64,000 nucleotides of DNA, taken from NCBI RefSeq assembly GCF_018271995.1, contig NZ_JAGUCO010000025.1:1-64000 (forward strand). The letters are read 5' to 3'. Shown one piece after another: positions 46,368 to 63,100 of this stretch. This DNA comes from Carboxylicivirga linearis (GTDB lineage: Bacteria; Bacteroidota; Bacteroidia; Bacteroidales; Marinilabiliaceae). Numbering within the stretch: the first letter of the stretch is position 1; each line of letters begins with the position of its first letter. The notes beneath the pieces are model-generated. The model was not told the origin of the DNA, made no database searches, and worked only from the letters and a program-made list of their open reading frames with translations. Both the position numbers and the translations under genes were made by a program.

Positions 46368-48131
46368 TTACCAACCCGGGTTCTGCTTATACACATCATC
46401 TGATAATCTAATTTCAGATTCAGGAATTGGAACAAGACCTTTTGTTTCTGAACGGTAATTCACGCTATAAGTAGCTGGAACACCCGAATTAACAACATCT
46501 ACTTCATTTGAATAAAAGTTCTTGCTATCATCTTCTACATCACCCCATCGAACCAAATCAAACCAGCGTAAACCTTCAAATGCAAATTCAAATTTACGTT
46601 CTTCCTTAAGCGCATCTAATGAATAAGCAATATCATCTAAACCAGCTCTGCGTCTAACCTCATTCATTCCATCTGCAGTTTCTGTCAACTCTGAATGCAT
46701 TAAAAGAACATCAGCATAACGTAAGTAGTAAAAATCCTGTGCAGCCCACAACTGCATTGGATCACCATTATCCATATCATACAGGTAATAAAACATACCT
46801 TTTACATCATCTGGTCCTCCATGCTGAATTGTAGTATATTTTTTATTGAACATACCTGTTTCATGGTCTCCTTTATTAGCCTGATAATCACCTGTTCCTT
46901 GTTCGGCATCCCCCATATCAAGAATGGAACCTTTTTTACGAAGATCATCATCGCTCCATTGAGCCTTTAGCAACGGATGTACCGTTCCCCATCCCCAACC
47001 TTGTCCGAAAGGAACCATAGAATTATCACGAATTCCAAAAAACAAACAAACTCGGTTATTATAGCTCTGACCTTTAGTCCAGCCCCAATTTCCAAATGCA
47101 TAGCGCAATGCGAACATTACTTCTGTATTTCCAGTTCCAATAGAAGATCGAGGTCCATCCTGACCAGCCCATGCCAAAGGAGTAGCAGGATCAGTATTAT
47201 CTGGATTTGCAGCCCAAGGCAAGACGGGATTAGTTCCATCTGGATTAAACTGACTGGCACTTTGATTCACATATGAATAAGGCCATAAATTTCTAAAATC
47301 ACTTAACAATTCATATCCACTTTCGCCAATTATATCATTAAGATATGCCACAACATTAGCTTTTGAAATTGTTCCTCCTTCTGGCAAAGCAATTTCTGTA
47401 GTAGCTGCCTTTTCAATATTAGTCATATAACCAGTATAGAATAGGAAAGCTCTGGCCATATATGCTTCTGCCACCCATTTATTGGCATGTCCATAAGTTG
47501 ATATATCTAAATCTGTTGCTTTTATTGCAGGCAAGGTTTCAATCGCCATTTTAAAATCTGATGCAATCTGTCCAAACGTCTCACCCATAGTAGAACGAGG
47601 CACATCCCTTGGTGCATCAGTTGTAGGAATAATAGGCATACCACCAAAAAACTTAGCAGCTCTAAATAAGTGGAATCCTCTCATGAAATAAGCTTCACCA
47701 ATAGCCTGATTTTTAAAATCATCAGCTTCTTCCTGAGTTTTAAAAAACGCAGAGTAATCAGCATCAACAGTTGCCTCAAGAATTGCATTACACCTATTAA
47801 TACCATTATATGTTTCTTTCCACAAATCTCTATAGGTATCTTCAGCAGGATCTTCAAAATTATCAACCCATTTGGCAGATTTATCATCAGGACCACCTCC
47901 ACCAAGCATTAAATCAGATAATAAATTGGCAGCGAGGTGTTCATTACTATGAGCTCCATTTACATAAAGTGCATTGTAGACACCGCCCATAGCTTCCTCT
48001 ATCTGTGCCGGTGTTTTATAATATGAATCCAAACTGGCTTCAAACAGGTTTTCTTGTTCGATGAAGCTATCATCACAACTATTAAGCCCCATCACCAACA
48101 ATAGACCAACGCTATATAATATTTTTTTCAT
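46368..48131 (-). CDS. SusD/RagB-family nutrient-binding lipoprotein
   Basis: The lid of the SusCD transporter. Lipobox GLNSC (Cys19). The helical TPR-containing N-terminal region includes YKTPAQIEEAMGGVYNAL and AYFMRGFHLFRAAKFFGGMPII; the C-terminal signatures are YYLRYADVLLMHSEL, NEVRRRAGLDD, ERKFEFAFEGLRWFDLVRW and the ending YKQNPGW. Length 587 is typical. It lies 16 bp after SusC, so both are co-translated from one transcript. Confidence 0.96.
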   Translation of the reverse strand: MKKILYSVGLLLVMGLNSCDDSFIEQENLFEASLDSYYKTPAQIEEAMGGVYNALYVNGAHSNEHLAANLLSDLMLGGGGPDDKSAKWVDNFEDPAEDTYRDLWKETYNGINRCNAILEATVDADYSAFFKTQEEADDFKNQAIGEAYFMRGFHLFRAAKFFGGMPIIPTTDAPRDVPRSTMGETFGQIASDFKMAIETLPAIKATDLDISTYGHANKWVAEAYMARAFLFYTGYMTNIEKAATTEIALPEGGTISKANVVAYLNDIIGESGYELLSDFRNLWPYSYVNQSASQFNPDGTNPVLPWAANPDNTDPATPLAWAGQDGPRSSIGTGNTEVMFALRYAFGNWGWTKGQSYNNRVCLFFGIRDNSMVPFGQGWGWGTVHPLLKAQWSDDDLRKKGSILDMGDAEQGTGDYQANKGDHETGMFNKKYTTIQHGGPDDVKGMFYYLYDMDNGDPMQLWAAQDFYYLRYADVLLMHSELTETADGMNEVRRRAGLDDIAYSLDALKEERKFEFAFEGLRWFDLVRWGDVEDDSKNFYSNEVDVVNSGVPATYSVNYRSETKGLVPIPESEIRLSDDVYKQNPGW

Positions 48132-48147
48132 TGTTATTTAGTTTAAA

Positions 48148-51100
48148 TTAGAAAGTAACATTTACACCTAACATAACTGTACGAGGTAATGGATATAAAC
48201 CTAAGTCTATTCCTGATGCCCAACTTGCATCATGTCCAAATCGAACTTCCGGATCCATACCACTATATTTTGTGAATGTATATAGGTTGTTAAACGCAAC
48301 ATAAAGTTTTGCACCTTGAACCCAGTCAACATCAGAAAGAAGTTTTCCAAACTTGTAACCAACAGTTAAATTGTTTATTCTTAAATAATCTGCATCATGA
48401 ACATAGATATCTGATACATAATTGGTATTTCTATTAGAACCCGATGTTAACCTTGGAATTCGATTTGAAGTACCCTCACCATGCCACCTTCCAAAAATTT
48501 CGGTTGTATAGTTTTGATCAAAACGGTCAGCAAAAGATCTGTATGATTGCATTACCTGCATTCCAAATTTACCTGCTAAAGTTGTACTTGCGTAGAACCC
48601 TTTAAATTCAGCATTTAATTGAATACCCAATTCAAAATCAGGATTTGGATCTCCTATTTTTACTTTATCATCCTCATTAATAACACCGTCTCCGTTCTGA
48701 TCTACAAATTTAACATCTCCAGGACGTAAATCTTCAAAATAAGGTTGTCCTGCATTAGCTGCTCCTTCAGGCGCAACATAGGCATCTACATCATCCTGAT
48801 TTTGCAACAATCCGTCGGTCTCATATCCATAGAAATAACCAATAGGTTCACCTACCATTACTCTTGACACATAAGATGTTCCTTGTGAGATCACACTACT
48901 TGGACCTTGAAATGTTTTTTCTGCATTATCAAGTTGTGTTACTTTATTCTTATTAAAAGCTCCGGTAACAGTAGCTCCATATTTAAATTCGCCTAAATTG
49001 TCATTCCAGCTTAACATTAATTCAAATCCTGAGTTTTCAACCGACCCGGCATTTCCCCAAGGTGCTTCTGCTCCTGCTGTTCCCAAAGAAGGAATTTCAA
49101 CCAGCCAGTCTTTTGTTGTCTTCTTATAATAATCTACTGTTAATCCCAATCGTGAGTTTATAAATCTTGCATCTAATCCAAAGTTTAACTGCTCTGATGT
49201 CTCCCATGTAACGTTAGGATTTGGAACTCTAGTAGGAATAGTAGTTAATCCAGAAACGGGTTTGGTATCACCAAAGAAATATCCAGGATTAATATAACTC
49301 ATATTTGCACTGTACTTAAAAGCTCCAATTCTCTCATTACCGTTTTGTCCCCAACTGGCTCTAAGTTTAGCAAAAGAGATGAAATCCAAAGTGCTCATAA
49401 AATCCTCTTCCGACATTATCCAACCAGCCGATACTGATGGGAAGGTTCCATATTTATTACCTTCAGAGAAATTGGATGATCCATCTCGACGTACGGTAAC
49501 ATCTAATAAATACTTTTCTTTAAAACCATATGAAACTCTACCAAAATAGGAAAGAATTCCACCACCTTGAGCTCCATAATTGGCACCCCAAGTATCAATA
49601 CCTTGCGATGTCTCACCTTTTTGTGCATTATCTAAATAGGCATATTCAGGAGATCCAAAAATAGTATTTGCAATACGACCACCTACATTCATATTATCAA
49701 CTTCTTTAATCATCTCAATACCTCCCAATGCAGAGATATCATGTTGATCGATGCGAAACTGATAATTAACAGTATTGGTATAGGTATGTCGAACACCTTG
49801 ATATGCATCCTGTTGCACAGCATCATTTGCATTTTGATATAAAGTACCTAAAGCATATGTTGGAGCCCATGACCTACTATTGCCATACCATGCATTTATA
49901 CCAAATGATGATCTGAAAACTAAACCATTTAATGGTTGAATCTCAGCGTAAACATTACCTACGATTGTATTATTTTTTCCCCAACCATAATTGCTTCTAT
50001 AAAACATAGTAGCTAAAGGATTGGTTTGATCATTTGCCAAACCATCTAAGGTTGGTGTAAAACCATTTGCGTCCGGTGATTCATCCCAATAAGCCGGCAT
50101 CAATGGATTCTGAACGAGAGCATTATGAAGATCATTCCAATAAATATTACCTGTTGCAACACTCCTGTTTTCAGTATTATTATAAGTGAAGTTTTCACCA
50201 ATCTTAACGATATCAAATCGATCATTCTTAAATAATACCATTTCTGAATTAAATCGGGTGGTTATACGCTTCATTCCTGCATCAGTAATATCACCTCCTA
50301 TTATTCCAGATTGATCAAAATAAGATACACCAATTGCATAAACCATATCTTTTTGTGATCCAGTAATGTTAATCGAATGGCTTTGAATGGGTGCATTTTT
50401 TTGAGTCATCTCATCTATCCAGTTGGTTCCTTCCCAACCTTCTTGAAGCATACTCCAAACATCTTCACCTAATTGAGTTCCCAATTCATTTGGATAATTG
50501 TTATTTAGCCAACTATTATTTAAAAGAATTGATTCCCAATCATATGGTTCCAAACCATCATTCGTGCGCCCTTCATCCATTATAAACATGTATTCTTGCG
50601 CATTAAGAGGAGTTAGGTTCTTATAAATATTCTGAACTCCGTAATAACCATCATATGTTACTCTGGTTTTAGCACCTTCTTTGGCCTTTTTAGTCGTAAC
50701 CAGAATAACACCATTAGCAGCACGAGAACCATAGATTGCAGATGAAGCTGCATCTTTAAGAACATCTATTGATTCAATATCCGATGGATTTAAATAATCA
50801 ATACCACCGTCAACTTGTATACCATCCACAACATATAATGGATTTGCATTATTAATGGTACCTAATCCACGGATTGTAACTTTTGTTCCTGCTCCGGGAG
50901 CACCATTATTCCGGGTAATACTAACTCCAGGTGTAATACCTTGCAATGCTTCCATCGCGGTTCCGGTATTCTTTTCAACAATTTCATCACCTTTAACATT
51001 AATATTTGCTCCGGTTACCAACGCCTTTTTCTTAACTCCATAACCAACAACTACAACCTCATCCAGGTCGGTTATGTCTGATTCCATGGCTACATTAATA

Positions 51101-51357
51101 ATTTCGCGATCTATCGTAATTTCTTGGTCGGTCATACCAACAAAAGAGAATAATAATAAATCGCCCTGATTGACCATTAAAGAGTAGGTACCTTCAACAG
51201 TTGTAATGGTTCCCGTTGTAGTACCTTTAACAATGACACTTACACCAGGTATTGGCATACCATCCGATGCATCTGTTACCGTACCGGTAACTGTCATTTC
51301 TTGTGCCTGACTAGTTATAGTCAGAAAGAGAAGGAAAATCCCTAACAGATGTTTCAT
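48148..51357 (-). CDS. SusC/RagA-family TonB-dependent outer-membrane transporter
   Basis: The TonB-dependent channel for oligosaccharide import. Signal peptide 1-18, carboxypeptidase-D regulatory-like domain about 22-105 (GTVTDASDGMPIPGVSVIVK), a TonB-box-like DEVVVVGYG, plug domain about 115-225 (NPLYVVDGIQVDGG, SSAIYGSRAANGVILVTTKK) and a 22-strand barrel ending NVTF. Length 1069 is normal. It starts the operon; a TATTTTTG box (51396-51389) lies just upstream. Confidence 0.96.
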   Translation of the reverse strand: MKHLLGIFLLFLTITSQAQEMTVTGTVTDASDGMPIPGVSVIVKGTTTGTITTVEGTYSLMVNQGDLLLFSFVGMTDQEITIDREIINVAMESDITDLDEVVVVGYGVKKKALVTGANINVKGDEIVEKNTGTAMEALQGITPGVSITRNNGAPGAGTKVTIRGLGTINNANPLYVVDGIQVDGGIDYLNPSDIESIDVLKDAASSAIYGSRAANGVILVTTKKAKEGAKTRVTYDGYYGVQNIYKNLTPLNAQEYMFIMDEGRTNDGLEPYDWESILLNNSWLNNNYPNELGTQLGEDVWSMLQEGWEGTNWIDEMTQKNAPIQSHSINITGSQKDMVYAIGVSYFDQSGIIGGDITDAGMKRITTRFNSEMVLFKNDRFDIVKIGENFTYNNTENRSVATGNIYWNDLHNALVQNPLMPAYWDESPDANGFTPTLDGLANDQTNPLATMFYRSNYGWGKNNTIVGNVYAEIQPLNGLVFRSSFGINAWYGNSRSWAPTYALGTLYQNANDAVQQDAYQGVRHTYTNTVNYQFRIDQHDISALGGIEMIKEVDNMNVGGRIANTIFGSPEYAYLDNAQKGETSQGIDTWGANYGAQGGGILSYFGRVSYGFKEKYLLDVTVRRDGSSNFSEGNKYGTFPSVSAGWIMSEEDFMSTLDFISFAKLRASWGQNGNERIGAFKYSANMSYINPGYFFGDTKPVSGLTTIPTRVPNPNVTWETSEQLNFGLDARFINSRLGLTVDYYKKTTKDWLVEIPSLGTAGAEAPWGNAGSVENSGFELMLSWNDNLGEFKYGATVTGAFNKNKVTQLDNAEKTFQGPSSVISQGTSYVSRVMVGEPIGYFYGYETDGLLQNQDDVDAYVAPEGAANAGQPYFEDLRPGDVKFVDQNGDGVINEDDKVKIGDPNPDFELGIQLNAEFKGFYASTTLAGKFGMQVMQSYRSFADRFDQNYTTEIFGRWHGEGTSNRIPRLTSGSNRNTNYVSDIYVHDADYLRINNLTVGYKFGKLLSDVDWVQGAKLYVAFNNLYTFTKYSGMDPEVRFGHDASWASGIDLGLYPLPRTVMLGVNVTF

Positions 51358-51625: not shown

Positions 51626-54541
51626 TCATTTTAAATTTGAAATATACCTTCCCAGATTCTCACCTTGTCCAATATTTAGTTTTTGACGTAGTTTATACCT
51701 GTTATTTTCAACTGCCCTTGATGTTATATTCATTAATGAAGCTATTTCTTTAGAAGACATCCCCATTCGTATATAGGCAGCTAACTTTTGCTCTCTCGGA
51801 GTCAGGTCGGGATGAACTTCTTTCAGACGATCAAGGAAAGACTCATGAACCTGCTCTAAATGCATTTCAAATACTTCCCAATAACTCTCACTATCCAAAT
51901 CTTTATCTATTTTTCTTATTAGGCCCTGTATTTTACTTTCCAATTCCGATTTATCACTAATTGATTTCAGTTTTTTTAATTGCAATTTCAGTGAACTTAA
52001 AAACTCATTCTTGCGAATAATATTCATCGTTGAATTAGCTAACTCCTTCTCTTTATGAACCATTTCATTACGTAACTTCTCATTTCGCATCTTAATCATT
52101 TCTTTTTCTGCTCTCAGGGCCTCTTTTTGCAATGCCTCTTCCTTCTCTTTAAAGAGTTCTCTTTGCTTCAACTTTTCCTTAGTTCTACTAATTTCTAATC
52201 TCTTATTAAATATCAAGAAAACTGTTAATGTTATTCCTAAAATGAGTACAAGGTATACTACTCTGGCGGTCAATGTTCTGTACCATGGAGGCAATACTAC
52301 AAATGAAAAAGTAATAGGACTTGTTTGAACACCATACCTGTTTTTAGCTTTAACAACAAAATCATAAGAACCTTCTTTTAGTTTGGTAAACTCCCTCATG
52401 GTTCTATTGGACCATTGAGTAAATGAAACATCCACTCCTTTTAAATAGGATGAATATACAACTTCATTATCCTCATAGTAACTTGCTGCATATTGAACTG
52501 TAAATGAATTGTTTTTAAATTCATAAACCGGAACGACTGACTGCTGAGCTTTATGATCATCTGTTTGATTTAATAAAAATGGTATCGTATCAGTAACTCC
52601 TTTAAAAGAACGTATGTTAATTTTAAATGGCCTACGATAGTTTTTCACCTCATCTACCAGGTAATGCGCAAAACCATCTTCAACACCGAAAAATGTTTCA
52701 TTATTATTAGGGACTAATATAGATTCAAAACTGTTAACCAGTTTATTGTGCAAAACTTTAAAGGGAAAATCAATCTTTTTATAAGTGGCATCCTCCATAT
52801 GCCTTAGCACCCCAACCATTCCATAATGGAAATACCATAAATTTTGAAAATCATCTAAATAAACAATTTTAGGAAACTCCCCCTTTTCAAAAAAATGATC
52901 CCATTTTACATATCGTTCAAAAGTTTTCGTCTTTAAATTATAATTATACATCCCTTGATTTCCAACGAATAAACAATCATCAGCAACTTTTGTAACAATC
53001 GCATCTTCTGAATTATTATCAACATCATCAAAAGAAAACTTTTTAGATAGGAGAACTTTTTTGAAATCAACATCAAAATTTAACTTGAAAATCCCTTCTG
53101 AGCCGTGCGTGATCCAAAGATTTCCTTCTTTATCCCACTCCATAAAACGCGACGATATTTCAAAACCTTCTATTTTCCATTTATACTTCCATCGTGAATC
53201 ACTCTTCTCTAGAAGCAACAAGCCGCTATATGTTCCCACAAGCATAAGGTTACTTCTATTGGGTACAGGTTTAAATAACCAGGCCCCCTTAATAACAGGA
53301 GGCGTTATCAGACGAGCGTTGTTACCTTCAACTTCAAAAACACCCAAATTATGTCCGCATAAAATTTGATTCCCTTCTTTATACAAACTCCACACCTGTC
53401 CCTCTGAGTTGGCAATCTTTTTAAAATCCTTTCTTGTTTTTAAAGGATTATGCAAAGTTTTCTCATCAATTGTAAACAGTGCCTGATTGGTACCCATATA
53501 ATACTCCCCTTCATAATTTTTTATGACATAACCAGTACCGATATCATAATACCCTTGCAAAAATGTAATACTTGAATTAAAATTTAAGCGGACAATTCCA
53601 TTATCTAAACCACCCCATATATTCCCTTCCTTATCCACAAAAACACTTAGTACTGTATTATTATTCAGCCCCTTATCTTTGTCGACATGCATTACGATGT
53701 CTCCTTTTTTATTTAGGATTACAATACCACTTTGTATGGTACCAAAAACCAGAAAATCATCTTTATAGCTGGTTCCACTAAAAATATTTGCATTGGTAAG
53801 CATTTCATTTGCAGGGATATTCCATGGTTTTATGGTATTCATATCCCAGATATAAAGACCATCTGTCATTGTGCCAATAACAATCTTATCATCAGAAAGT
53901 GACATAACTGAGTTAATCATCTTATCTTTAAACACGTCTCCTCCTGACACACGGTAAGCCTTGTCTCCTCTTACTTCCTTCAATCCATCACTTTCATCGT
54001 GAACCAATAATAAACCATTAACAATATAGGAAGAGGAGTAACGTGTCTTAGCCGAAATAGTATTAACCAGTTGATCATCTTCAAAAAAGCATAAATTATT
54101 CTCAGATTGAAAGACAACTTTATTATTCCATTGATGAATATTCCAGAAATCTCCGCTCTTCTGAAGTTCATCGTTTAAAGGATAGGAATGAAACACTAAA
54201 TGACGTAGAGAATCATCATATTGATAGTAACCTATTTTATTGAACAAGCCGACGTAAATTCTGTCATCAATACATTCGACACTTCTGATAACAAATGGTG
54301 ATTCTTCGCGATGAAGCTGCCAGCTTACACCATCAAACTCTACCACCCCATCGTTATTGGCAAAATAAAGAAAGTCATTATCATTCTGACTAATTCCCCA
54401 GTTCTGGGTTCCGGCGCCATATTGCCTTCTGTTAAAATATTCAATTTCAGGAAGTCCTACTTTTTGAGCAAAAGACAATTGCGAAAACAGAGAAAGTATA
54501 TAAAGGAAAAAGCTAAACCTATAAATGTTGGATCTTTTCAT
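51626..54541 (-). CDS. propeller/Y_Y_Y sensor with LuxR-type HTH, regulator of the glucan locus
   Basis: The ATG at 54541 gives a signal peptide (MKRSNIYRFSFFLYILSLFSQ); one 36 bp upstream adds twelve residues. The periplasmic part (to about residue 740) has repeated propeller blades (Reg_prop-like VFVDKEGNIWGGLDNGIVRL) and a Y_Y_Y domain (LKEGSYDFVVKAKNRYG). A transmembrane helix (ARVVYLVLILGITLTVFLIF) and a long coiled coil rich in Glu/Lys follow. The C-terminus is a LuxR/GerE HTH (LTPREQKLAAYIRMGMSSKE). There is no HisKA, HATPase or receiver, so this is a one-component relative of hybrid two-component regulators. It lies upstream of SusC on the same strand. Confidence 0.9.
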   Translation of the reverse strand: MKRSNIYRFSFFLYILSLFSQLSFAQKVGLPEIEYFNRRQYGAGTQNWGISQNDNDFLYFANNDGVVEFDGVSWQLHREESPFVIRSVECIDDRIYVGLFNKIGYYQYDDSLRHLVFHSYPLNDELQKSGDFWNIHQWNNKVVFQSENNLCFFEDDQLVNTISAKTRYSSSYIVNGLLLVHDESDGLKEVRGDKAYRVSGGDVFKDKMINSVMSLSDDKIVIGTMTDGLYIWDMNTIKPWNIPANEMLTNANIFSGTSYKDDFLVFGTIQSGIVILNKKGDIVMHVDKDKGLNNNTVLSVFVDKEGNIWGGLDNGIVRLNFNSSITFLQGYYDIGTGYVIKNYEGEYYMGTNQALFTIDEKTLHNPLKTRKDFKKIANSEGQVWSLYKEGNQILCGHNLGVFEVEGNNARLITPPVIKGAWLFKPVPNRSNLMLVGTYSGLLLLEKSDSRWKYKWKIEGFEISSRFMEWDKEGNLWITHGSEGIFKLNFDVDFKKVLLSKKFSFDDVDNNSEDAIVTKVADDCLFVGNQGMYNYNLKTKTFERYVKWDHFFEKGEFPKIVYLDDFQNLWYFHYGMVGVLRHMEDATYKKIDFPFKVLHNKLVNSFESILVPNNNETFFGVEDGFAHYLVDEVKNYRRPFKINIRSFKGVTDTIPFLLNQTDDHKAQQSVVPVYEFKNNSFTVQYAASYYEDNEVVYSSYLKGVDVSFTQWSNRTMREFTKLKEGSYDFVVKAKNRYGVQTSPITFSFVVLPPWYRTLTARVVYLVLILGITLTVFLIFNKRLEISRTKEKLKQRELFKEKEEALQKEALRAEKEMIKMRNEKLRNEMVHKEKELANSTMNIIRKNEFLSSLKLQLKKLKSISDKSELESKIQGLIRKIDKDLDSESYWEVFEMHLEQVHESFLDRLKEVHPDLTPREQKLAAYIRMGMSSKEIASLMNITSRAVENNRYKLRQKLNIGQGENLGRYISNLK

Positions 54542-54575
54542 AGAATCAGATGATTTAGGAGTTAGCAAAATAAAC

Positions 54576-54605
54576 AAAAGCTGCCTTTTAACAAAAGCAG
54601 CTTTT
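54576..54605 (-). terminator. terminator-like hairpin ending the surface-polysaccharide operon
   Basis: AAAAGCTGC (54576-54584) pairs perfectly with GCAGCTTTT (54597-54605) around 12 nt. On the minus strand it follows the sugar transferase stop by 28 bp and leads into a T-rich stretch. Confidence 0.75.
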
Positions 54606-54633
54606 AGATATCAGTTAATTTTATTTATTACTC

Positions 54634-55620
54634 CTATGAACTTAGAATTTTTCCGGATAAAACATTAAATATAGCTTTAAAAAAGTATTTAATATCGGTC
54701 CAATGTGGATATTTCTCTTTCTCTGATAAATAAATCCTCTCAGCCTCAATATTCCCCTTACTATCTGGCATTAAAAGTGCAACGTATGGAGGTATACAGC
54801 CCGGTTTATAATGAATTCTTCTTTCTCTTATATCTATAGGTAACTCCTTAAAACGAGCTTCACTCAATGGTCTTACTCCCACTAAGGCCAACTCTCCTCT
54901 TAACAGATTATAGACCTGAGGTAATTCATCAATCCAATATTTACGAATAAATCTACCCAATGGAGTCAATCTGAAGTCATTGTTTGGTTTCCCTTTGGTA
55001 TTATAACCATTCATTCCAACCACATACTCCTGTAAATACTCCGAAAAGGGATACATTGTACGAATTTTAAAAACTTTAAGCTTATTGCCGTTTTTACCAA
55101 TACGCATCATTGGTATGATATAACGCTGATGATAACCCGGCTCTAATTTGGGTAAAGCAGTCTTCATTACACAGATATGAAGTGCCCCATTGATATTCTT
55201 AAAATCAATAATTGAAAATCCTGAATTAACCAATCGCCCTAACACTTCCGCCTTTGATTTTCGTTTCTTAAATGTAAGACTTTGCTTTTTGATACCAGAT
55301 ACATTCACATTACAAAAGAAAATCCCACCATCAAGAAGCAGGTGATTAATCTGGTAAAGAAATCTCTGTCCATCTTCAAATGTTAGAGGATTTAAATCAA
55401 CCAGCACATTTAAACCGGATTGCGTTAAACTTGATTTTGATTGATTTAATTTACGGACGACAATTTTGTCCTGTGATAAAGATGCATTTTCGGTTATGAA
55501 ACGATAGACTTCTTTGCCTTGATTTTGTATAGTTGTATACCGAGCATCAAAAGTACTTTGTTTTTCAACAAGCCTTGCAGAAGAAAATCGTGATATGGTA
55601 GCCCCTCGTGAAGTCATCAC
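54634..55620 (-). CDS. polyprenyl-phosphate sugar phosphotransferase (bacterial sugar transferase)
   Basis: Starts a glycan chain by moving a sugar phosphate to a lipid carrier. The C-terminal half (about 185-328) is the bacterial sugar transferase domain: KVFKIRTMYPFSEYL, LTPLGRFIRKYWIDELPQVY and LLRGELALVGVRPLS. The N-terminal half (about 1-160) resembles the methyltransferase-like domain seen in some Bacteroidota homologues (VLVDLNPLTFEDGQRFLYQI, LLDGGIFFCN). No membrane hairpin is visible between the halves, and the protein is shorter than I would expect for this type, so an internal deletion is possible. Last gene of the cluster. Confidence 0.85.
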   Translation of the reverse strand: MMTSRGATISRFSSARLVEKQSTFDARYTTIQNQGKEVYRFITENASLSQDKIVVRKLNQSKSSLTQSGLNVLVDLNPLTFEDGQRFLYQINHLLLDGGIFFCNVNVSGIKKQSLTFKKRKSKAEVLGRLVNSGFSIIDFKNINGALHICVMKTALPKLEPGYHQRYIIPMMRIGKNGNKLKVFKIRTMYPFSEYLQEYVVGMNGYNTKGKPNNDFRLTPLGRFIRKYWIDELPQVYNLLRGELALVGVRPLSEARFKELPIDIRERRIHYKPGCIPPYVALLMPDSKGNIEAERIYLSEKEKYPHWTDIKYFFKAIFNVLSGKILSS

Positions 55621-55701
55621 CCAAACCTTTTTGTAAGTATACTCAAAAAAGAGTAACAGGTATAATTTATTTGACGACTAAAAGCTATTATTCCATGAGA
55701 G

Positions 55702-57162
55702 TTAGTTCTTTTTCACTTTTTTACCCGCTGCATTCACATCAACATTATCTTTAAATTCGATGACTCCAGGCACTTTGTAGGAAGCCAGTTTTGAAGCACA
55801 ATACTCTTTAATTGATATATCCGTCACCTCCTTATAATCTTTATTCATCACCACTATTGCTTTTATGGATTCACCCAAATATTCATCAGAAACTGCTTCA
55901 ATGGTACAATCAATAACCCCATTAATACCAACAATTACTTCTTCAATCTCCTTGGGACTCACTCTCCGTCCTCCAACTTTTATAATCTCCTTTTTACGGG
56001 CAGCGTGATAGATAAAACCATCATCATCAATTGTTGCTAAATCTCCTGTATGCAGCCAGCCATTATCAAGGGCATTCTTCGTCTCTTCCTCATCCTTAAA
56101 ATACCCTAACATCACATTATCTCCATGAGCCACAATTTCTCCAACCGCACCGGATTGAACACTCTCACCCTTATCATCCACAACTTTTAGTTCAACATCA
56201 GGAATACCTTTTCCTAAAGAGCCCAACTTAGTTTCTAATAAATCAGGCGAAAGATATGAAAGTCGTGCTGTTGCTTCTGTTTGCCCATACATCACATAAA
56301 ACTGAGTTTCAGGCTTTGATTCTCTAAATTCTTTAATAAAGGTAGTATGTAGTTTTCCTCCGGCCTGAGTCACATATCTCAGATTCGGAAATTCAGTATT
56401 TTTAAACGTTTCAGATTTTCTCAACAGTATTTGAAAATGACTTGGCACCCCTGCAAAACCCGTACATTTATACTTCTGCAAATCACTAATTACCGAACCT
56501 AAAAAGATAAAGGTATTATTAAGAACTATTTTTCCACCAACTTTTAGATGCGTGTGCAGCAAGGATAATCCATAACAATAAAAAAATGGTAAAACCACTT
56601 CCATTATATCACTTTCGTTCAACTTCAGGTAGGTGATTATAGATTGAGTATTGGCAATCAGGTTCTTATGTGACAACATAACTCCTTTAGGCAAAGAAGT
56701 TGATCCGGAAGTAAATATAATTTGAGCTAACTGATTCTCATTAATCGCATTATCTATCCATTCTGTTTCATTGCTAGTAGTTTTTATGTTATTTATGAAA
56801 TCTTCATTCCAAACATCATTTATATCAATTTGAAATCTTTTACAGACCTGTTTTACCATAAACACATGATCTGTTTCGCACAATTCTTTGATATAATCAA
56901 ATTGATCCTTTTCAATTCCGGGATTTAAAGGCACAACTACGTTTCCGGACTTCATTATAGCCAGATAGGCTGTGATAAAGAATGAATTATTGGGGGATAA
57001 CAACAAAATTTTATTATCCACCCCAATATTATTTTTCAACCAATCCGCTAATTTCGCAACCAATTGAGCCAATTCTTTAAAACTAACCTCTTCTGATCGC
57101 CCCAGTATAAATAGTTCTTCATTTATTATTTGTTCCGAAAGAAAATAATCAACACAGTTCAT
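55702..57162 (-). CDS. AMP-dependent acyl ligase (ANL superfamily)
   Basis: Activates a carboxylic acid with ATP to an acyl-adenylate and passes it to a thiol, here plausibly the acyl carrier protein upstream. Motifs: phosphate loop IIFTSGSTSLPKGVMLSH, YGQTEATAR, GWLHTGDLATIDDDG, the hinge KVGGRRVSPKEIEE, and the C-terminal Lys in AAGKKVKKN. Length of about 486 residues is normal. The ATG at 57162 (MNCVDYFLSE) starts at the usual family position; one at 57198 would add twelve residues. The substrate cannot be predicted. Confidence 0.88.
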   Translation of the reverse strand: MNCVDYFLSEQIINEELFILGRSEEVSFKELAQLVAKLADWLKNNIGVDNKILLLSPNNSFFITAYLAIMKSGNVVVPLNPGIEKDQFDYIKELCETDHVFMVKQVCKRFQIDINDVWNEDFINNIKTTSNETEWIDNAINENQLAQIIFTSGSTSLPKGVMLSHKNLIANTQSIITYLKLNESDIMEVVLPFFYCYGLSLLHTHLKVGGKIVLNNTFIFLGSVISDLQKYKCTGFAGVPSHFQILLRKSETFKNTEFPNLRYVTQAGGKLHTTFIKEFRESKPETQFYVMYGQTEATARLSYLSPDLLETKLGSLGKGIPDVELKVVDDKGESVQSGAVGEIVAHGDNVMLGYFKDEEETKNALDNGWLHTGDLATIDDDGFIYHAARKKEIIKVGGRRVSPKEIEEVIVGINGVIDCTIEAVSDEYLGESIKAIVVMNKDYKEVTDISIKEYCASKLASYKVPGVIEFKDNVDVNAAGKKVKKN

Positions 57163-57232
57163 TAAAACAAGTTTAAAGTTTAAAGGCAAAATCTTCATAG
57201 ATCATGTAGGCTAATCCGTTGTTATTAATTGA

Positions 57233-58216
57233 TTAGCATAGATAATCATGAATAGGAGGACGACGCAAATAATCAGTTGTCTTCTTTTTGCGCTCAAAAT
57301 TCTTAAAAATCTTTACAACAGCTTCTTCAGTCAAGTTCATTACAGGAGCCACTTCCGCTGCACTATATCCGTTTTCCCATCCATACCAAAGCAAATCCAT
57401 ATCTTCAAATGGCATTTGATAAAAGAATTCCTCCTGAGTCTGCTCAGCAGAGTAGGTATCAGTTGTCGGTGTGCGATCTATAATTTCCTGAGGAACTCCC
57501 AGATAACGTGCAATTTCATACACCTGGGTTTTGAACAGATTTCCTATAGGCATCACATCTGCACCTCCATCACCAAATTTTACAAAAAAGCCCTGCTCCA
57601 CTTCATGTTTATTTGGCGTACCAATAACAGCATAATGCAATGCCTCAGCATGATAATATAACATCGACATCCTACTGCGCTGCTTGAAGTTTGACGCAGC
57701 CACTATCTGCAGGTATTCATTCATTGGGAGTCGCTCACTTCGCTTTGTTCCATCTGCAAAAATAACCGTAACATGAAAGACAGGAGGAAGATTCTTACGA
57801 ATTAACTCTTCCGGAATAACAATCTTCATCTTATCTGCTAACGGATTAAATTCCGGTATCACTCTTTTTACAGCTTCATCACGCCTCTGATAACATTGGA
57901 AACCATCCAGAGCTCCACTGATATTTTCCTCTATCACCTTCACTCCAAATTTAGCAGTCAGTTTTTGAGCAAATTCTTTACTATCCGGACTGGAATCTTT
58001 CTCGGGTAACATCACTCCCAATAAGTTTTCTGCACCAAAAGCTTTGGTTGCCAAAGCCAATGTTACGGAAGAATCTATTCCTCCACTAACACCAATTACT
58101 CCACCTCGTCTTCTTAATTCCTGATGAACATCCTGCTTTAATTTTGTGCAAATATCATTAATGGTTTTATCAATATCTTTAAGCTTAATAATATCTCTTG
58201 AGAAATTTTCTTTCAT
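57233..58216 (-). CDS. NadE-type ATP-pyrophosphatase amide synthetase
   Basis: An N-type ATP-pyrophosphatase related to NAD synthetase. The P-loop SGGIDSS is at residues 44-50, and GTPNKHEVEQGFFVKFGDGG plus PIGNLFKTQVYEIARYLGVP are NadE-like. There is no N-terminal nitrilase domain, so it needs free ammonia or ammonia from a partner; the AsnB-type gene is 12 bp upstream. Compared with housekeeping NadE (about 275) it is longer at 327, with an insert around 115-165. Its place in a glycan cluster suggests amidation of a carboxylate other than NaAD, but plain NAD synthesis cannot be excluded. Confidence 0.8.
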   Translation of the reverse strand: MKENFSRDIIKLKDIDKTINDICTKLKQDVHQELRRRGGVIGVSGGIDSSVTLALATKAFGAENLLGVMLPEKDSSPDSKEFAQKLTAKFGVKVIEENISGALDGFQCYQRRDEAVKRVIPEFNPLADKMKIVIPEELIRKNLPPVFHVTVIFADGTKRSERLPMNEYLQIVAASNFKQRSRMSMLYYHAEALHYAVIGTPNKHEVEQGFFVKFGDGGADVMPIGNLFKTQVYEIARYLGVPQEIIDRTPTTDTYSAEQTQEEFFYQMPFEDMDLLWYGWENGYSAAEVAPVMNLTEEAVVKIFKNFERKKKTTDYLRRPPIHDYLC

Positions 58217-58228
58217 GTTTTATTGAGT

Positions 58229-60199
58229 TTAAAGTTTTCTATTACGTACTACTCCCCTTATCAACTTCGTCTCATCAAGGGGTTGATAATTCATTATGTA
58301 TTGGTTATATAATATTTGTGTCGATAGTATCCCGATCAAAGCCATATTATCTACTTCTGTAATCAATCCACTCTTATTTAGTTTATTCAATAAAGAAGTA
58401 ACCGTTTGTGCATTAAACAATCCAGTTTCCAAAAATGAAGCAGGATTCAGATATTTATCTAGTAGTTCTTTTCCATATGTCATTATTGCACTTGCTACGG
58501 GAGCCCGATATGCCTGCTTCGGTCTGTTTACAACTGATTCCGGCAACCTACCTTGCATCATCTTTTTGATGAGATATTTCTCATTCAATCCTTTCAACTT
58601 AAAATCATCAGGCAAGGATGCACAAAACTCAATCAACCGATGATCCAAAAACGGATATCTTCCTTCTACAGAATTAGCCATTGCCACTCTATCCCCCTGA
58701 GATGATAGTAGGTACCCTGACATAAAAACAGTTGATTCAATATATTGAGCTTTTTCCAGAGGGCTATAGCCTGCAACCAGATCAAGTATCTTTTCAGTAT
58801 ATTCATTGACAGGATCATATCCATTTAAAAGACTTTTAACACCATCAGAAAAATGAGCACTTAAATTCTGTCCGTTTCTCCATCTCAACAAATGAGAATA
58901 TATGGGTGAATCCGTTTCCTGAAGTTTATATCCAAAAAACATCTTCAGCATTGCCGGGGAAGCATTGCTGAGTTGTGGGATATAAGGATATAGTTTTTTC
59001 AACAATAAGGATCTGAATTTTGAATCCGGAAATTTGGCCCAAAACTGTCGAATAACAGCTTCCTTAAATATATTATACCCTCCCAGGTTTTCATCTGCTC
59101 CTTCTCCTGTAATAACTACTTTAATATCATTATCGCGAACCAATCCGGATAATTTCATCATAGGAATAGGAGATGTCCTGAATAATGGAGCCTCTGTATG
59201 CCAGATAGCTTTTTCTAATAAACCAGGTATATCTGAGTCATTGGTTGAAATAAAATGATGTTTCGTTTTAAAATACTCTGATACTTCTTTTTGATAGGAA
59301 GATTCATCAAAGGTACCATCCTGAAATCCTATGGAGAATGTATTTAAGTTATCCGGCTGAACCTGTCTGATAAAGGATGTGGTAACACTGGAATCCAGCC
59401 CTCCACTTAAATAAGCTGCCACAGGCACATCTGCTCTTAATCGCAGATCAACAGATTCTTTAAAAAGAGTCTCAAACTCTTCTATTGCCTCATTGATGCT
59501 TCCATTGTACTTTGGCTGATTAAAATCTAATTGCCAGTATTTTTTTATTTCAACTTTTCCTTGCGAATAGAGAAGAGTGTGTCCGGGAGAAAGTTCATTT
59601 ATACCCTCAAACACAGTATCGGGTGTAATGGTTGTCCAGTATGTAAAAGCTTGTTTTAGTGCTTTATAATTAATTGATCGATTTATACCCGGATATTCAA
59701 ATATAGATTTTATCTCAGAACCAAATACCAATCTATCTTCGGATAGATGGTAAAATAACGGCCGTATACCCACTCTGTCACGGGCCATAAACAACTCTTG
59801 CTTCTTCTCATCCCAAATTGCAAAAGCAAACTGGCCGTTCAAATGTTGCACACAGGATTCACCGTATTCTTCATACATATGAACCACTACTTCAGTATCA
59901 CAATTGGTTTTAAATCTGTGCCCTTTGTTCTTTAGTTGCTCACGGAGTTCGGGATAATTAAAAACCTCACCATTATAGGCAATCCATAAACTACCATCTT
60001 CGTTGGATAAGGGTTGCTGACCACTTTTTAAATCAACAATGCTCAACCTTACATTTCCAATACAACAATGGTCAGAGATATATAATCCCATTTCATCCGG
60101 ACCACGATGTATGATTCTATTAAGCATTCGATTTAACAGAAACTCTTGTTGATCTTTACTTTGATTTGAGTTGTTCGTAAATCCGGCAATTCCACACAT
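58229..60199 (-). CDS. AsnB-type glutamine-dependent amidotransferase
   Basis: A class II amidotransferase of 656 residues. Cys2 in MCGIAGF is the glutaminase nucleophile; RLSIVDLKSGQQPL and YNGEVFNYPELR follow. The synthetase half has the ATP-pyrophosphatase loop AAYLSGGLDSSVT, VVITGEGADENLGGYN, and GRYPFLDHRLIEFC. Such AsnB paralogues in surface-polysaccharide clusters often amidate sugar uronic acids or amino-acid decorations rather than making Asn. Between ACP and NadE-type genes. Confidence 0.9.
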   Translation of the reverse strand: MCGIAGFTNNSNQSKDQQEFLLNRMLNRIIHRGPDEMGLYISDHCCIGNVRLSIVDLKSGQQPLSNEDGSLWIAYNGEVFNYPELREQLKNKGHRFKTNCDTEVVVHMYEEYGESCVQHLNGQFAFAIWDEKKQELFMARDRVGIRPLFYHLSEDRLVFGSEIKSIFEYPGINRSINYKALKQAFTYWTTITPDTVFEGINELSPGHTLLYSQGKVEIKKYWQLDFNQPKYNGSINEAIEEFETLFKESVDLRLRADVPVAAYLSGGLDSSVTTSFIRQVQPDNLNTFSIGFQDGTFDESSYQKEVSEYFKTKHHFISTNDSDIPGLLEKAIWHTEAPLFRTSPIPMMKLSGLVRDNDIKVVITGEGADENLGGYNIFKEAVIRQFWAKFPDSKFRSLLLKKLYPYIPQLSNASPAMLKMFFGYKLQETDSPIYSHLLRWRNGQNLSAHFSDGVKSLLNGYDPVNEYTEKILDLVAGYSPLEKAQYIESTVFMSGYLLSSQGDRVAMANSVEGRYPFLDHRLIEFCASLPDDFKLKGLNEKYLIKKMMQGRLPESVVNRPKQAYRAPVASAIMTYGKELLDKYLNPASFLETGLFNAQTVTSLLNKLNKSGLITEVDNMALIGILSTQILYNQYIMNYQPLDETKLIRGVVRNRKL

Positions 60200-60223
60200 A
60201 GGCGGGTAAGGTTTAAAGAAAAC

Positions 60224-60252
60224 AATGAGCTAGTGAAATACACTAACTCATT
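60224..60252. promoter_or_regulatory. hairpin between ACP and amidotransferase genes
   Basis: AATGAGCTAGTG pairs with CACTAACTCATT around AAATA with one mismatch. It lies in the 73-bp gap inside the operon, with moderate T-richness after it on the minus strand, so it may attenuate or stabilise the transcript. Confidence 0.5.
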
Positions 60253-60272
60253 CTAAATATCTTTGTTTTAAC

Positions 60273-60536
60273 TTAACTGGCCAGAGCCATTTTGCGGCCT
60301 ACAAAGTCAGCTATCCGCTCCACGCTACCAAAATTTTCTTCCTGAAGTTCAGTATCATCTGTAACTACATTAAATTCTGATTCCAGAAAATTTATTAATC
60401 CCAATAATCCCATTGAGTCAAAGATTCCTTCATCAAAGATCATGGTATCATCACTAAATGAATTAATATCGGTAAAAGTAGTCTCAGCTATAAAACTTTT
60501 AATTTTATCCTTCATATCCCTTTTGGTTAATAACAT
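60273..60536 (-). CDS. acyl carrier protein
   Basis: An 87-residue carrier protein. The 4'-phosphopantetheine site is Ser41 in IFDEGIFDSMGLLGLINFLE, with the usual acidic helix after it. A second Met (MKDKIK) seven codons in may be the true start. It stands at the head of the operon with an AMP-dependent ligase and two amide synthetases, so it is probably specialised for this pathway rather than fatty-acid synthesis. Confidence 0.9.
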   Translation of the reverse strand: MLLTKRDMKDKIKSFIAETTFTDINSFSDDTMIFDEGIFDSMGLLGLINFLESEFNVVTDDTELQEENFGSVERIADFVGRKMALAS

Positions 60537-60657: not shown

Positions 60658-61536
60658 TTACTTCTCAACATTAGCTATTGAATCATTATCAATGTATATA
60701 CCTTTTAAATTTGTTAAAGTTCCCTTTGTCTCAATTATATCAACTATTCTATTACAAAACAAAGGAGCCACTTTTGCACTAAATTCTTTATTAGGATGAC
60801 TATTACCTGGCGATACTGCATAATCATCTTTCAAATACAATCCTCCCTCTGTTTCCAGTTCATAAAAATCCCATATATATATATTATCCTCTTGCTCATC
60901 CCACTCTAGCTTTACCCAGGTAAAGAACTCTCGAGTTCTTTGTGCGCGCTCTTCACTATTATTCTTCTGCGTATGCACAGCACCAGTCCAAATAATAAAC
61001 TTTGTATTAGGATATTTATAAAATTCATTCTTCAGTGCCTCATATTGCAACTTATAGTTTGCTATCGTCTTTAAATCTGAATCAATATTTGGATTTCCAT
61101 CATCCAAAACCGAACTAACAGGGAAGCAATGTTTAATTATTATCACATCCCATAAGGGGGCTAGTGTTTTTAACGTAGGTTCGTATTTATAAGATTCCTT
61201 GTCTCCATTTTTAACCCAGATGTTATAATAGTCAAAGGGGTAATTATTCCAACCATATCCTGGGATATATCTCAACACTCTTGATTTTGGAAAAGCTTCT
61301 TCCACAATATTATAATTCACCTCTTTTTCCTGATTATATGTATTAAACCAAATCAACACGTCCGGCTCCCCATTCTTCATTTCACCATTGTAAATATTAT
61401 TACCGGTACTGTGATGAAGGAACAAAATATTTACAGCATTCTTTCCTACATCAAGCTTATCTTTATAACCATTATGCTCACATGAAACAAACACAAAGGA
61501 GATCAATAGTAAGATGTATATCTGATTTTTTTTCAT
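60658..61536 (-). CDS. lipoprotein, possible SGNH-hydrolase-like
   Basis: Lipobox FVSC (Cys19). After a short linker, NILFLHHSTGNNIYNG has a Ser in the place of a GDSL-type nucleophile; DVIIIKHCFP and TKFIIWTGAVHTQ resemble the central strands of the SGNH fold; and GNSHPNKEFSAKVAPLFC near the end could supply the catalytic His. Taken together this suggests an esterase or sugar-modifying SGNH-like protein, but I do not recognise the exact family and the catalytic Asp is not clear. It precedes the ACP gene by 121 bp on the same strand. Confidence 0.5.
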   Translation of the reverse strand: MKKNQIYILLLISFVFVSCEHNGYKDKLDVGKNAVNILFLHHSTGNNIYNGEMKNGEPDVLIWFNTYNQEKEVNYNIVEEAFPKSRVLRYIPGYGWNNYPFDYYNIWVKNGDKESYKYEPTLKTLAPLWDVIIIKHCFPVSSVLDDGNPNIDSDLKTIANYKLQYEALKNEFYKYPNTKFIIWTGAVHTQKNNSEERAQRTREFFTWVKLEWDEQEDNIYIWDFYELETEGGLYLKDDYAVSPGNSHPNKEFSAKVAPLFCNRIVDIIETKGTLTNLKGIYIDNDSIANVEK

Positions 61537-62283: not shown

Positions 62284-62415
62284 CCAACACATCAATAACG
62301 TTAATCCAACCTAAAAGACTTAACCAGATTTAAAACTACTCCTCGGTTCCTAACGAGGATCTTATTATAAGGAATTTGCAATTCATATACTATTCTAATC
62401 CTAAAGGCATTTCAA
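62284..62415 (+). repeat. 132-bp direct repeat, copy 1
   Basis: Aligns without gaps to 62969-63100, with about 16 mismatches by eye. It includes an inverted repeat CCTCG...CGAGG and the shared run ATTTGCAATTCATATACTAT. Confidence 0.8.
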
Positions 62416-62968
62416 AATTTCTTTGAATCATCTCAATCCAGCTAAGTCAAGTTTCTAAATGTGCTAATTTACAAAGACCTCTTCTCAGTCCTCTCCTAAA
62501 GGAGAAGAGGCCTTTACTTGTAAAAGCTCTATCCCTCGTTTCCTAACGAGGGATAGTTGTCTTTGGATTTACAATTCATAAAGAAACACACATGAATGCC
62601 AATAATTCATTCAACCTAAGTTAAGAAACGAAAGGTAGGTTCAATAAATATCAAACAATACAAAAGACCTCATCCCAACCTTCTCCTTAAAATGAGAAGG
62701 AGACAATTACATAAAATTTCACTCCCCTCTCTTCCTAACAATTAAGGAATGAAGTTTATAGCTGTTAAATATGAAAGTACAGATGTCTAATGGAAGTTAG
62801 TGAAGAAATAAACACCTCTCCTCAATCCTGTATACTGCATGCAAAGAATCTCATGTTTATAATCTATTTTAGCAATTACTTTTCAAGCAAAATATCACAA
62901 AATCAGACAGCATATAAATGCGATTGTTTCTAATACTCTCCTCGGTCCTCTCCAAATTGGAGAGGAGG

Positions 62969-63100
62969 CCAACACATCACTCACATTTATCCAATCTAAA
63001 AGACTTAACTAGATCAAAAACTACTCCTCGGTTCTTAACGAGGAGCTTATTGCAATGAATTTGCAATTCATATACTATTCTAATCGTAAATACATTTCAA
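62969..63100 (+). repeat. 132-bp direct repeat, copy 2
   Basis: Second copy, 685 bp downstream of the first, in the same orientation and of equal length. A partial third unit (hairpin plus ACAATTCATAAAG) occurs near 62529-62583. Confidence 0.8.

Follow-up and report, generated by a model that had tools for sequence, protein, structure and literature searches.

The DNA analyzed here, referred to as the window, comprises 64,000 nucleotides of Carboxylicivirga linearis (Bacteroidota; RefSeq assembly GCF_018271995.1, contig NZ_JAGUCO010000025.1, positions 1 to 64,000) and carries neighboring genes for an acyl/peptidyl carrier protein (ACP), an AsnB-type glutamine amidotransferase, a NadE-like amide synthetase, and an AMP-forming (ANL) ligase. 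These four genes are a conserved cassette found across many bacterial groups, and the NadE-like protein is not the NAD synthetase of the genome. With a probability that we put at roughly 0.55, the cassette serves not NAD synthesis but the assembly, on the carrier protein, of an acyl or aminoacyl group that bears an amide and is passed on to a glycan or another acceptor. Acyl activation coupled to amidation, which an initial annotation had proposed from the sequence, is still the best-supported reading after the comparisons described here.

The NadE-like protein scored 427.6 bits against NF002048, the NCBIfam model named 'NAD(+) synthase', well above the curated cut-off of 313. Its AlphaFold2 model, with a predicted local distance difference test score (pLDDT) of 94.1, aligned with structure 1xng over 247 residues (Z 29.6, root-mean-square deviation [rmsd] 2.0), indicating a NadE fold over almost the entire length. 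In the alignment, it keeps the P-loop as SGGIDSS, following the SGGxDS pattern, together with several NadE motif residues. The initial annotation had described a stand-alone protein with an insert, and we located this insert, some 60 residues long, between positions 106 and 166 of the protein. The insert measures 57 to 66 residues across 56 aligned relatives, among which its Tyr109 and Lys131 are invariant, and its conserved columns are gaps in 11 or 12 of 13 housekeeping rows (including L128, a misread open reading frame [ORF]). Many further residues that are invariant among the NadE-like rows differ in these housekeeping rows, although some of the differences may be general between NadE types, because the housekeeping rows mix single-domain and long glutamine-dependent-type Bacteroidota forms.

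The annotation had also raised the question of a second complete nadE, and the genome does hold one elsewhere, encoding 549 residues, a length typical of the glutamine-dependent form. Another NadE was present in all 41 carrier genomes checked: the 13 of the Bacteroidota sample (the source of the window included), 20 of 20 reached through other loci (a 21st record, consisting of a plasmid alone, was not counted), and 8 of 8 more, among them all five cassette-less ones. In two of the 41 (G408 and G414), this other match lies just below the TIGR00552 cut-off. Phylogenetic analysis agreed with the expectation that the NadE-like protein does not group with housekeeping NadE. A maximum-likelihood tree separated 56 NadE-like from 27 housekeeping rows by a single branch (support 99/97), and the same split was recovered at 100/100 with the insert removed (56 versus 26 rows), with the caution that a long branch lies between the groups. 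A first quick tree supported this split with a value of only 87; it contained four very long rows, of which two proved to be misread ORFs. The 99/97 tree, which omits L149, uses both after re-reading, together with L128, and the insert-free tree omits both L149 and L175. The housekeeping copies in the trees are those with a fetched locus, so that the copies of, e.g., G406, G407, G408, G410, and G414 are outside them.

These data bear directly on whether the NadE-like protein could be an ordinary second NAD synthetase, co-inherited with its neighbors by chance. Such an assignment would agree with the NCBIfam name, the nearly full-length fold match, and the retained P-loop and motif residues. 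However, it would leave unexplained the presence of another NadE in every carrier genome checked, the separate clade, the conserved insert, the many type-specific invariant residues, and the linkage to ACP, ligase, and AsnB genes, which is absent from 12 housekeeping NadE stretches. We therefore regard it as very improbable and reject ordinary NAD synthesis as the role of this protein. What the NadE-like group shares with NadE is the fold, the P-loop, and a single synthetase domain lacking a glutaminase domain; databases appear to mislabel it as an NAD-making enzyme.

The second line of evidence is the conservation of the gene neighborhood. Relatives came from a scan of one genome per species, and the 80 loci compared are the best 80 of at least 220 confirmed, so that they lean toward close relatives. 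According to the record titles, which may name the wrong organism because many loci are metagenome assembled, the matches listed include Bacteroidota, Planctomycetota, Pseudomonadota and other proteobacterial groups, Nitrospira, Verrucomicrobia, Acidobacteria, myxobacteria, Gemmatimonas, Nocardioides, and others. ACP, AsnB, ligase, and NadE-like genes were found together in relatives, as a neighborhood check proposed with the annotation had anticipated: where at least 5 kb was available on both sides, 39 of 48 loci had all three partners within 7 kb of the NadE-like gene, 38 of them with all three on the nadE strand, and 53 of the full 80 loci had all three within this distance. An even sample of Bacteroidota yielded the NadE-like gene in 13 of 395 genomes (E 1e-60); besides the window, 10 of the 12 loci carried all three partners, and the remaining two carried two. 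In the control, none of the 12 housekeeping NadE stretches had any of the three partners. This control covers the source genome of the window and 11 of the 12 sample genomes (G109 omitted), 9 of the 12 stretches being flanked by 5 kb or more on either side, and with the middle of the stretch used as the center where no NadE query matched.

Gene order varies between groups, and the NadE-like and AsnB genes are not always adjacent. Over 53 loci, distances between homologs were correlated most strongly for the NadE-like/AsnB pair (0.73), followed by NadE-like/ligase (0.44) and the third pair, which also involves the ligase (0.38); the highest of 300 permutations reached 0.17, and species history was left uncorrected. 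Additionally, 116 plasmid records matched at E 1e-30, with Sinorhizobium (76), Azospirillum (12), Ensifer (9), Shinella (8), and Mesorhizobium (7) represented, and on pSymB of Sinorhizobium meliloti the order asnB-ACP-ligase-nadE is consecutive; in strain 1021 the four genes span NC_003078 1450582-1455388. Phage records searched at E 1e-20 yielded no relative. As a separate observation on NadE-like genes that stand without the cassette, an Rrf2-type gene lies nearby in L054 and L088 and a pta-like gene in L068, L075, and L088, all named by eye.

The ACP matched PF00550 with 27.2 bits (cut-off 20.8); it is weakly related to DltC and further small ACPs, every such match being below cut-off. AsnB scored 515 bits against TIGR01536 (cut-off 267) and has both glutaminase and synthetase motifs; asparagine synthesis is not implied by this model because other amidotransferases exceed it too. 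For the ligase, PF00501 gave 239 bits, and the 25 NCBIfam matches shown all fell below their own cut-offs. Among 70 AsnB rows, which include one non-cassette second AsnB (L117 431-2302), a start with the glutaminase Cys visible (MCG, VCG, or MCA) was found in 68. The synthetase half looks largely intact, since SGG[LI]DS is kept in 67 and [GS]EG[AS]DE in 69 of the 70; EK[YHF][LI][LI] is present in 52. One relative, L082, has a called AsnB start of MASIAGF instead of MCG and would be without the glutaminase Cys.

The initial annotation suggested that the NadE-like protein may have a new carboxylate substrate and may draw its ammonia from AsnB. Could AsnB act solely as the glutaminase of the NadE-like protein, the two forming a two-part glutamine-dependent synthetase with one product amide? 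The tight distance correlation of this pair and the better retention of the glutaminase Cys than of the EK[YHF][LI][LI] pattern speak for it. The preserved synthetase motifs argue the other way, as does the fact that in many loci the neighbor of nadE is the ligase or ACP and not AsnB; L114, L058, L086, and L092 even have NadE-like, ACP, and ligase genes with no AsnB within 7 kb. On balance, we consider this arrangement improbable. A published genome-context analysis of NAD synthetases, a family that includes two-component glutamine-dependent forms, is reported to have found no new glutaminase-subunit type (PMC3376133). An apparent NadE-AsnB fusion in L120 (a 955-residue ORF) was discarded, as its two tblastn matches lie in different frames.

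At one motif position of the ligase, the relatives divide into two main types. Amino acid-adenylating enzymes carry Asp at this position. The motif is of the FDYG type in 25 of 74 loci and of the YCYG type, shared by the window, in 32. PrmC-like genes accompany 10 of the 25 D-type loci and 0 of the 49 others (p 4.6e-6), and GNAT-like genes accompany 0 of the 32 C-type loci and 9 of the 42 others (p 0.008); neither test is corrected for kinship, and the locus labels were assigned by hand, by eye for ten ligases missed by the motif pattern. These associations suggest that the loaded acid differs between lineages. Some relatives have additional ligases: two in one ORF in a Nitrospira metagenome-assembled genome (MAG) (L072 6717-9854) and two in tandem in a planctomycete MAG (L079 6550-9790). 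In L093 (11755-14910), a second ACP and a ligase, followed by an Orn/DAP-type decarboxylase, adjoin the cassette.

According to the pathway that these families would support, the ligase would adenylate a carboxylic or amino acid and load it on the ACP. Two amidations would follow the same chemistry, in which a carboxylate is converted to an acyl-AMP and then to the amide; the AsnB-type enzyme would use glutamine for this and the NadE-like enzyme ammonia, the latter having presumably exchanged deamido-NAD for a carboxylate of the pathway. In some lineages, a HemK/PrmC-like methyltransferase may N-methylate the amide. The carrier-bound group might then reach its acceptor by different routes, in some Bacteroidota through a DltB-like MBOAT together with an SGNH protein and in rhizobia through a GNAT-like enzyme. 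What the comparisons show is the composition of the cassette, its conservation, the separation from housekeeping NadE, and predicted folds; the reaction steps are inferred.

The candidate SGNH protein of the window is encoded by a sixth gene (60658-61536) that the initial annotation overlooked. This gene shares the strand of the ACP gene, lies 121 nucleotides upstream of it, and probably belongs to the run. Its product had no Pfam or NCBIfam match at E 0.001. By eye, a lipobox-like FVSC is seen near the N terminus; in the alignment, Ser43 (within FLHHSTG) follows the first strand, and His247 is part of an SHP motif. The AlphaFold2 model, built from 7 sequences (pLDDT 78.9, predicted template modeling score [pTM] 0.80), was closest in VIA-align to 4h08, a putative hydrolase (Z 14.4, rmsd 3.0, 180 residues aligned), and the top 50 structures are mostly titled GDSL-type lipases, esterases, or acylhydrolases, with OatA and PatB at ranks 49 and 50. 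Foldseek results were modest (best E 2.5e-4; TM score of at most 0.42 in the rows under E 0.001, one of which is an enoyl-ACP reductase). The model thus predicts an SGNH fold in which a Ser follows strand 1 and Ser-His-Pro is C-terminal. Relatives lie beside the cassette in L026, L038, L039, L043, L046, and L049, and in L026, L038, L039, and L049 the neighbors of the gene include an MBOAT and a conserved protein of about 315 residues. A second protein group with a similar motif, HxSVG, occurs near other cassettes; several copies of it surround a divergent cassette in L082 (472-12728).

MBOAT genes are near the cassette in 8 loci (L026, L038, L039, L049, L029, L042, L043, and L122). The one scanned against NCBIfam, that of L039, matched only DltB, with 168 bits, below the cut-off of 375. 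GNAT-like proteins are found in the rhizobial and some other loci, and no locus among those listed combines a GNAT-like gene with an MBOAT or with an SGNH gene. Their profile gave only weak PDB matches, the best being an N-myristoyltransferase (0.0012); single proteins had no NCBIfam match and at best a Pfam GNAT match below cut-off. Among the 80 loci, MBOAT genes were counted in 7 (and in one of the 12 of the Bacteroidota sample), SGNH-type genes in 15, PrmC-like genes in 8, and GNAT-like genes in 7.

Of the 84 sequences first compared, 10 have a HemK/PrmC-like gene nearby, which is absent from the window. The two proteins scanned at E 0.001 both exceed the TIGR00536 cut-off of 115.5 bits (158 and 167) and score just under the PrmC cut-off; the protein of L029 was scanned only at E 1e-60, where it had no match. 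All seven aligned proteins have the NPPYIS motif, and all six PDB matches of the profile at E 1e-10 are HemK/PrmC chains. Each of the eight genomes has another, higher-scoring PrmC homolog besides the cassette-linked copy; in this whole-genome search, six of the eight cassette-linked copies were just above the PrmC cut-off and two below, the rows being linked to loci by contig position for L029 only and by score and order for the others. Known members of the HemK/PrmC family methylate glutamine side-chain amides, and a PrmC-like neighbor therefore fits an amide-bearing product.

The initial annotation placed the product on a surface glycan or lipid-linked sugar, and the genomic context of many loci fits this part of the proposal. 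In the window's surroundings, wza-, wzc-, and capD-like genes lie about 5.5 to 11 kb upstream of the SGNH gene on the strand of the cassette (L099 13062-18482, on the contig beyond the window), with a DUF772 transposase remnant and another ORF in between. The exopolysaccharide of these genes would be the most likely acceptor in the window. Pfam scans of 117 and 127 neighbor ORFs in two sets of chosen loci (the second covering 127 of 147 listed ORFs; L120, L070, L083, and L090 dropped for having no called nadE) gave no more than 7 ORFs for any of the commonest families, which include hexapeptide transferases, chain-length proteins, polysaccharide deacetylases, glycosyltransferases, GNAT domains, exosortase, and EpsI (DUF3485).

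Several observations weigh against the proposed pathway. One or more partners are missing from 9 of the 48 well-flanked loci, and L054, L065, L068, L075, and L088 (5 of 80) have none of the three within 7 kb. MBOAT, SGNH, PrmC-like, and GNAT-like genes are each confined to a minority of loci. Among 395 genomes, just three (that of the window being one) yielded a relative of the SGNH gene, and one of these relatives, in G132, is separated from the NadE-like gene by about 57 kb. The window contig has no MBOAT match, and the three PF03062 matches of the genome are all on other contigs. A single substrate for all cassettes is doubtful because the two main ligase motif types share the same AsnB/NadE pair. 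In the copies inspected from S. meliloti, Mesorhizobium ciceri, and Nitratireductor, the four genes are not directly flanked by glycan genes. These copies lie outside glycan clusters, so that a glycan cannot be the acceptor everywhere, and they do not support this part of the annotation. In rhizobia, the acceptor may differ or may be no glycan.

The rhizobial copies also provide the main support for a cassette that makes a soluble small amide (a compatible solute, part of a siderophore, or a signaling molecule) instead of decorating a glycan, with the GNAT-like enzyme N-acylating the product and the PrmC-like enzyme N-methylating its amide. On the plasmids of S. meliloti, M. ciceri, and Nitratireductor, the four genes have no adjoining glycan genes; the GNAT-like gene adjoins the cassette in M. 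ciceri and Nitratireductor and is about 10 kb away in S. meliloti, and the PrmC-like gene adjoins it in M. ciceri and is about 11 kb away in S. meliloti. AsnB is, furthermore, related to the N-acetylglutaminylglutamine amidotransferase TIGR03104, although its 366 bits are below the cut-off of 570. In many other loci, nevertheless, the cassette is surrounded by polysaccharide genes, exosortase loci, or DltB-like MBOATs; moreover, it is not obvious what a secreted SGNH protein would contribute to the synthesis of a cytosolic solute. We judge a soluble product to be unlikely, without being negligible. The wider form of the carrier-bound amide pathway is put forward tentatively, at odds somewhat below even: a phylum-spanning pathway in which a NadE relative would amidate a carboxylate that is carrier linked or soon to be so, together with a glutamine-fed AsnB homolog, in some cases PrmC-type N-methylation of the amide, and exit enzymes that can replace one another (either GNAT-like or a DltB-like MBOAT with SGNH), the result being amide-bearing decorations on surface glycans or other acceptors.

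It is important to consider how the cassette compares with described systems. The XrtA/PEP-CTERM exosortase-associated set provides some of the best named NCBIfam matches, as it shares an AsnB-type amidotransferase (TIGR03108), an ANL ligase (TIGR03098), and a location in exopolysaccharide loci; it also has an ACP. However, all five cassette AsnB proteins scanned (window 477 bits, four relatives 446 to 487; cut-off 816.9) and all six ligases (window 300, five relatives 343 to 504; cut-off 592.35) fall below these models, and the NadE-like protein is an added component. Exosortase accompanies only some loci, appearing in 3 of 127 neighbor ORFs of one set and not among the 25 families listed for the other. 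Membership in this family was rejected on the basis of the cut-offs. The Dlt system of D-alanylation, formed by DltA, DltB, DltC, and DltD, shares the principle of a small group loaded on a carrier, and some relatives have a DltB-like MBOAT with an SGNH-fold partner; the conserved protein of about 315 residues is likened to DltD by position only and has no Pfam match. In contrast to Dlt, the cassette has two amide-forming enzymes and the window cluster lacks an MBOAT. Dlt membership was likewise rejected, with the MBOAT below its cut-off and the ACP scoring 35 bits against 68 for NF003464 and 23.5 against 52 for TIGR01688. In the N-acetylglutaminylglutamine amide pathway, an AsnB-type enzyme makes a terminal amide on a non-aspartate substrate. 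The cassette shares this enzyme type, scoring below TIGR03104, and to our knowledge that pathway has neither an ACP nor a NadE-like protein.

The NadE-like group is thus already named by NCBIfam, relatives of the AsnB and ligase have exosortase-locus models, and acyl activation on a carrier protein combined with amidation is known in kind. A search of the open-access literature, with subscription papers and preprints outside its scope, found no description of the four-gene set. If the proposed function is correct, a whole protein group annotated as NAD(+) synthase has another job, which would affect metabolic models and work on NadE inhibitors, and the gene set of S. meliloti pSymB, for which we found no assigned product, would become testable in a model symbiont. 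The combination of amide-forming enzymes, a homolog of amide N-methyltransferases, and exchangeable acyltransferases amounts to a concrete chemical prediction for a laboratory strain that is tractable.

Features of the gene run and its boundaries in the window (positions of the 64,000-nucleotide stretch)
Feature	Position	Strand	Remarks
Hairpin of 14 pairs with T-rich tail, after the sugar transferase gene	54575-54606	-	Possible end of the transcription unit; pattern scan only
Sugar transferase	54634-55620	-	PF02397 in the C-terminal half; N-terminal half without assignment; last gene of the run
AMP-forming (ANL) ligase	55702-57198	-	PF00501/PF13193; motif type YCYG; presumed ACP loader
NadE-like amide synthetase, NF002048/PRK00876 group	57233-58216	-	NF002048 above cut-off
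NadE-like insert, residues ~106-166	57719-57901	-	Family specific; helices and strands in the model
AsnB-type glutamine amidotransferase	58229-60199	-	TIGR01536; MCG start, SGGLDSS and GEGADE motifs
Hairpin with T-rich tail in the ACP-AsnB intergenic gap	60224-60252	-	Possible attenuator; pattern scan only
Acyl/peptidyl carrier protein	60273-60536	-	Ser41 in DSMG; PF00550 above cut-off
Predicted SGNH-fold secreted protein	60658-61536	-	Predicted fold; no Pfam or NCBIfam match

The five genes that the initial annotation placed on one strand were all recovered as ORFs at the expected positions of the minus strand, and the family models agree with their names. The intergenic gaps measure 73 nucleotides between ACP and AsnB, 12 between AsnB and NadE-like, 34 between NadE-like and ligase, and 81 between ligase and sugar transferase. 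The terminator pattern scan behind the two hairpins of the table covered 13 kb and returned 12 terminator-like sites, compared with 5.9 expected from shuffles.

The sugar transferase occupies the place in the run given by the annotation, but its standing as a core member was rejected: a homolog is near only 9 of the 80 loci and 0 of the 12 of the Bacteroidota sample, so that it is an occasional neighbor. Its PF02397 match starts at model position 36, and the N-terminal 165 residues have no assignment. A similar protein, 46% identical, adjoins the cassette in L046 and is found some 6 kb away from the ligase in L119.

Directly after the run, a gene for a LuxR-type regulator (window 51626-54577) has a Y_Y_Y match below cut-off and adjoins TonB-receptor (SusC-like) and SusD-like genes at 46368-51357. 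Three similar palindromes of the TCCTCG...CGAGGA type (window 62340-63046) lie upstream of the SGNH gene, within about 1.9 kb that contains no ORF of at least 120 residues.

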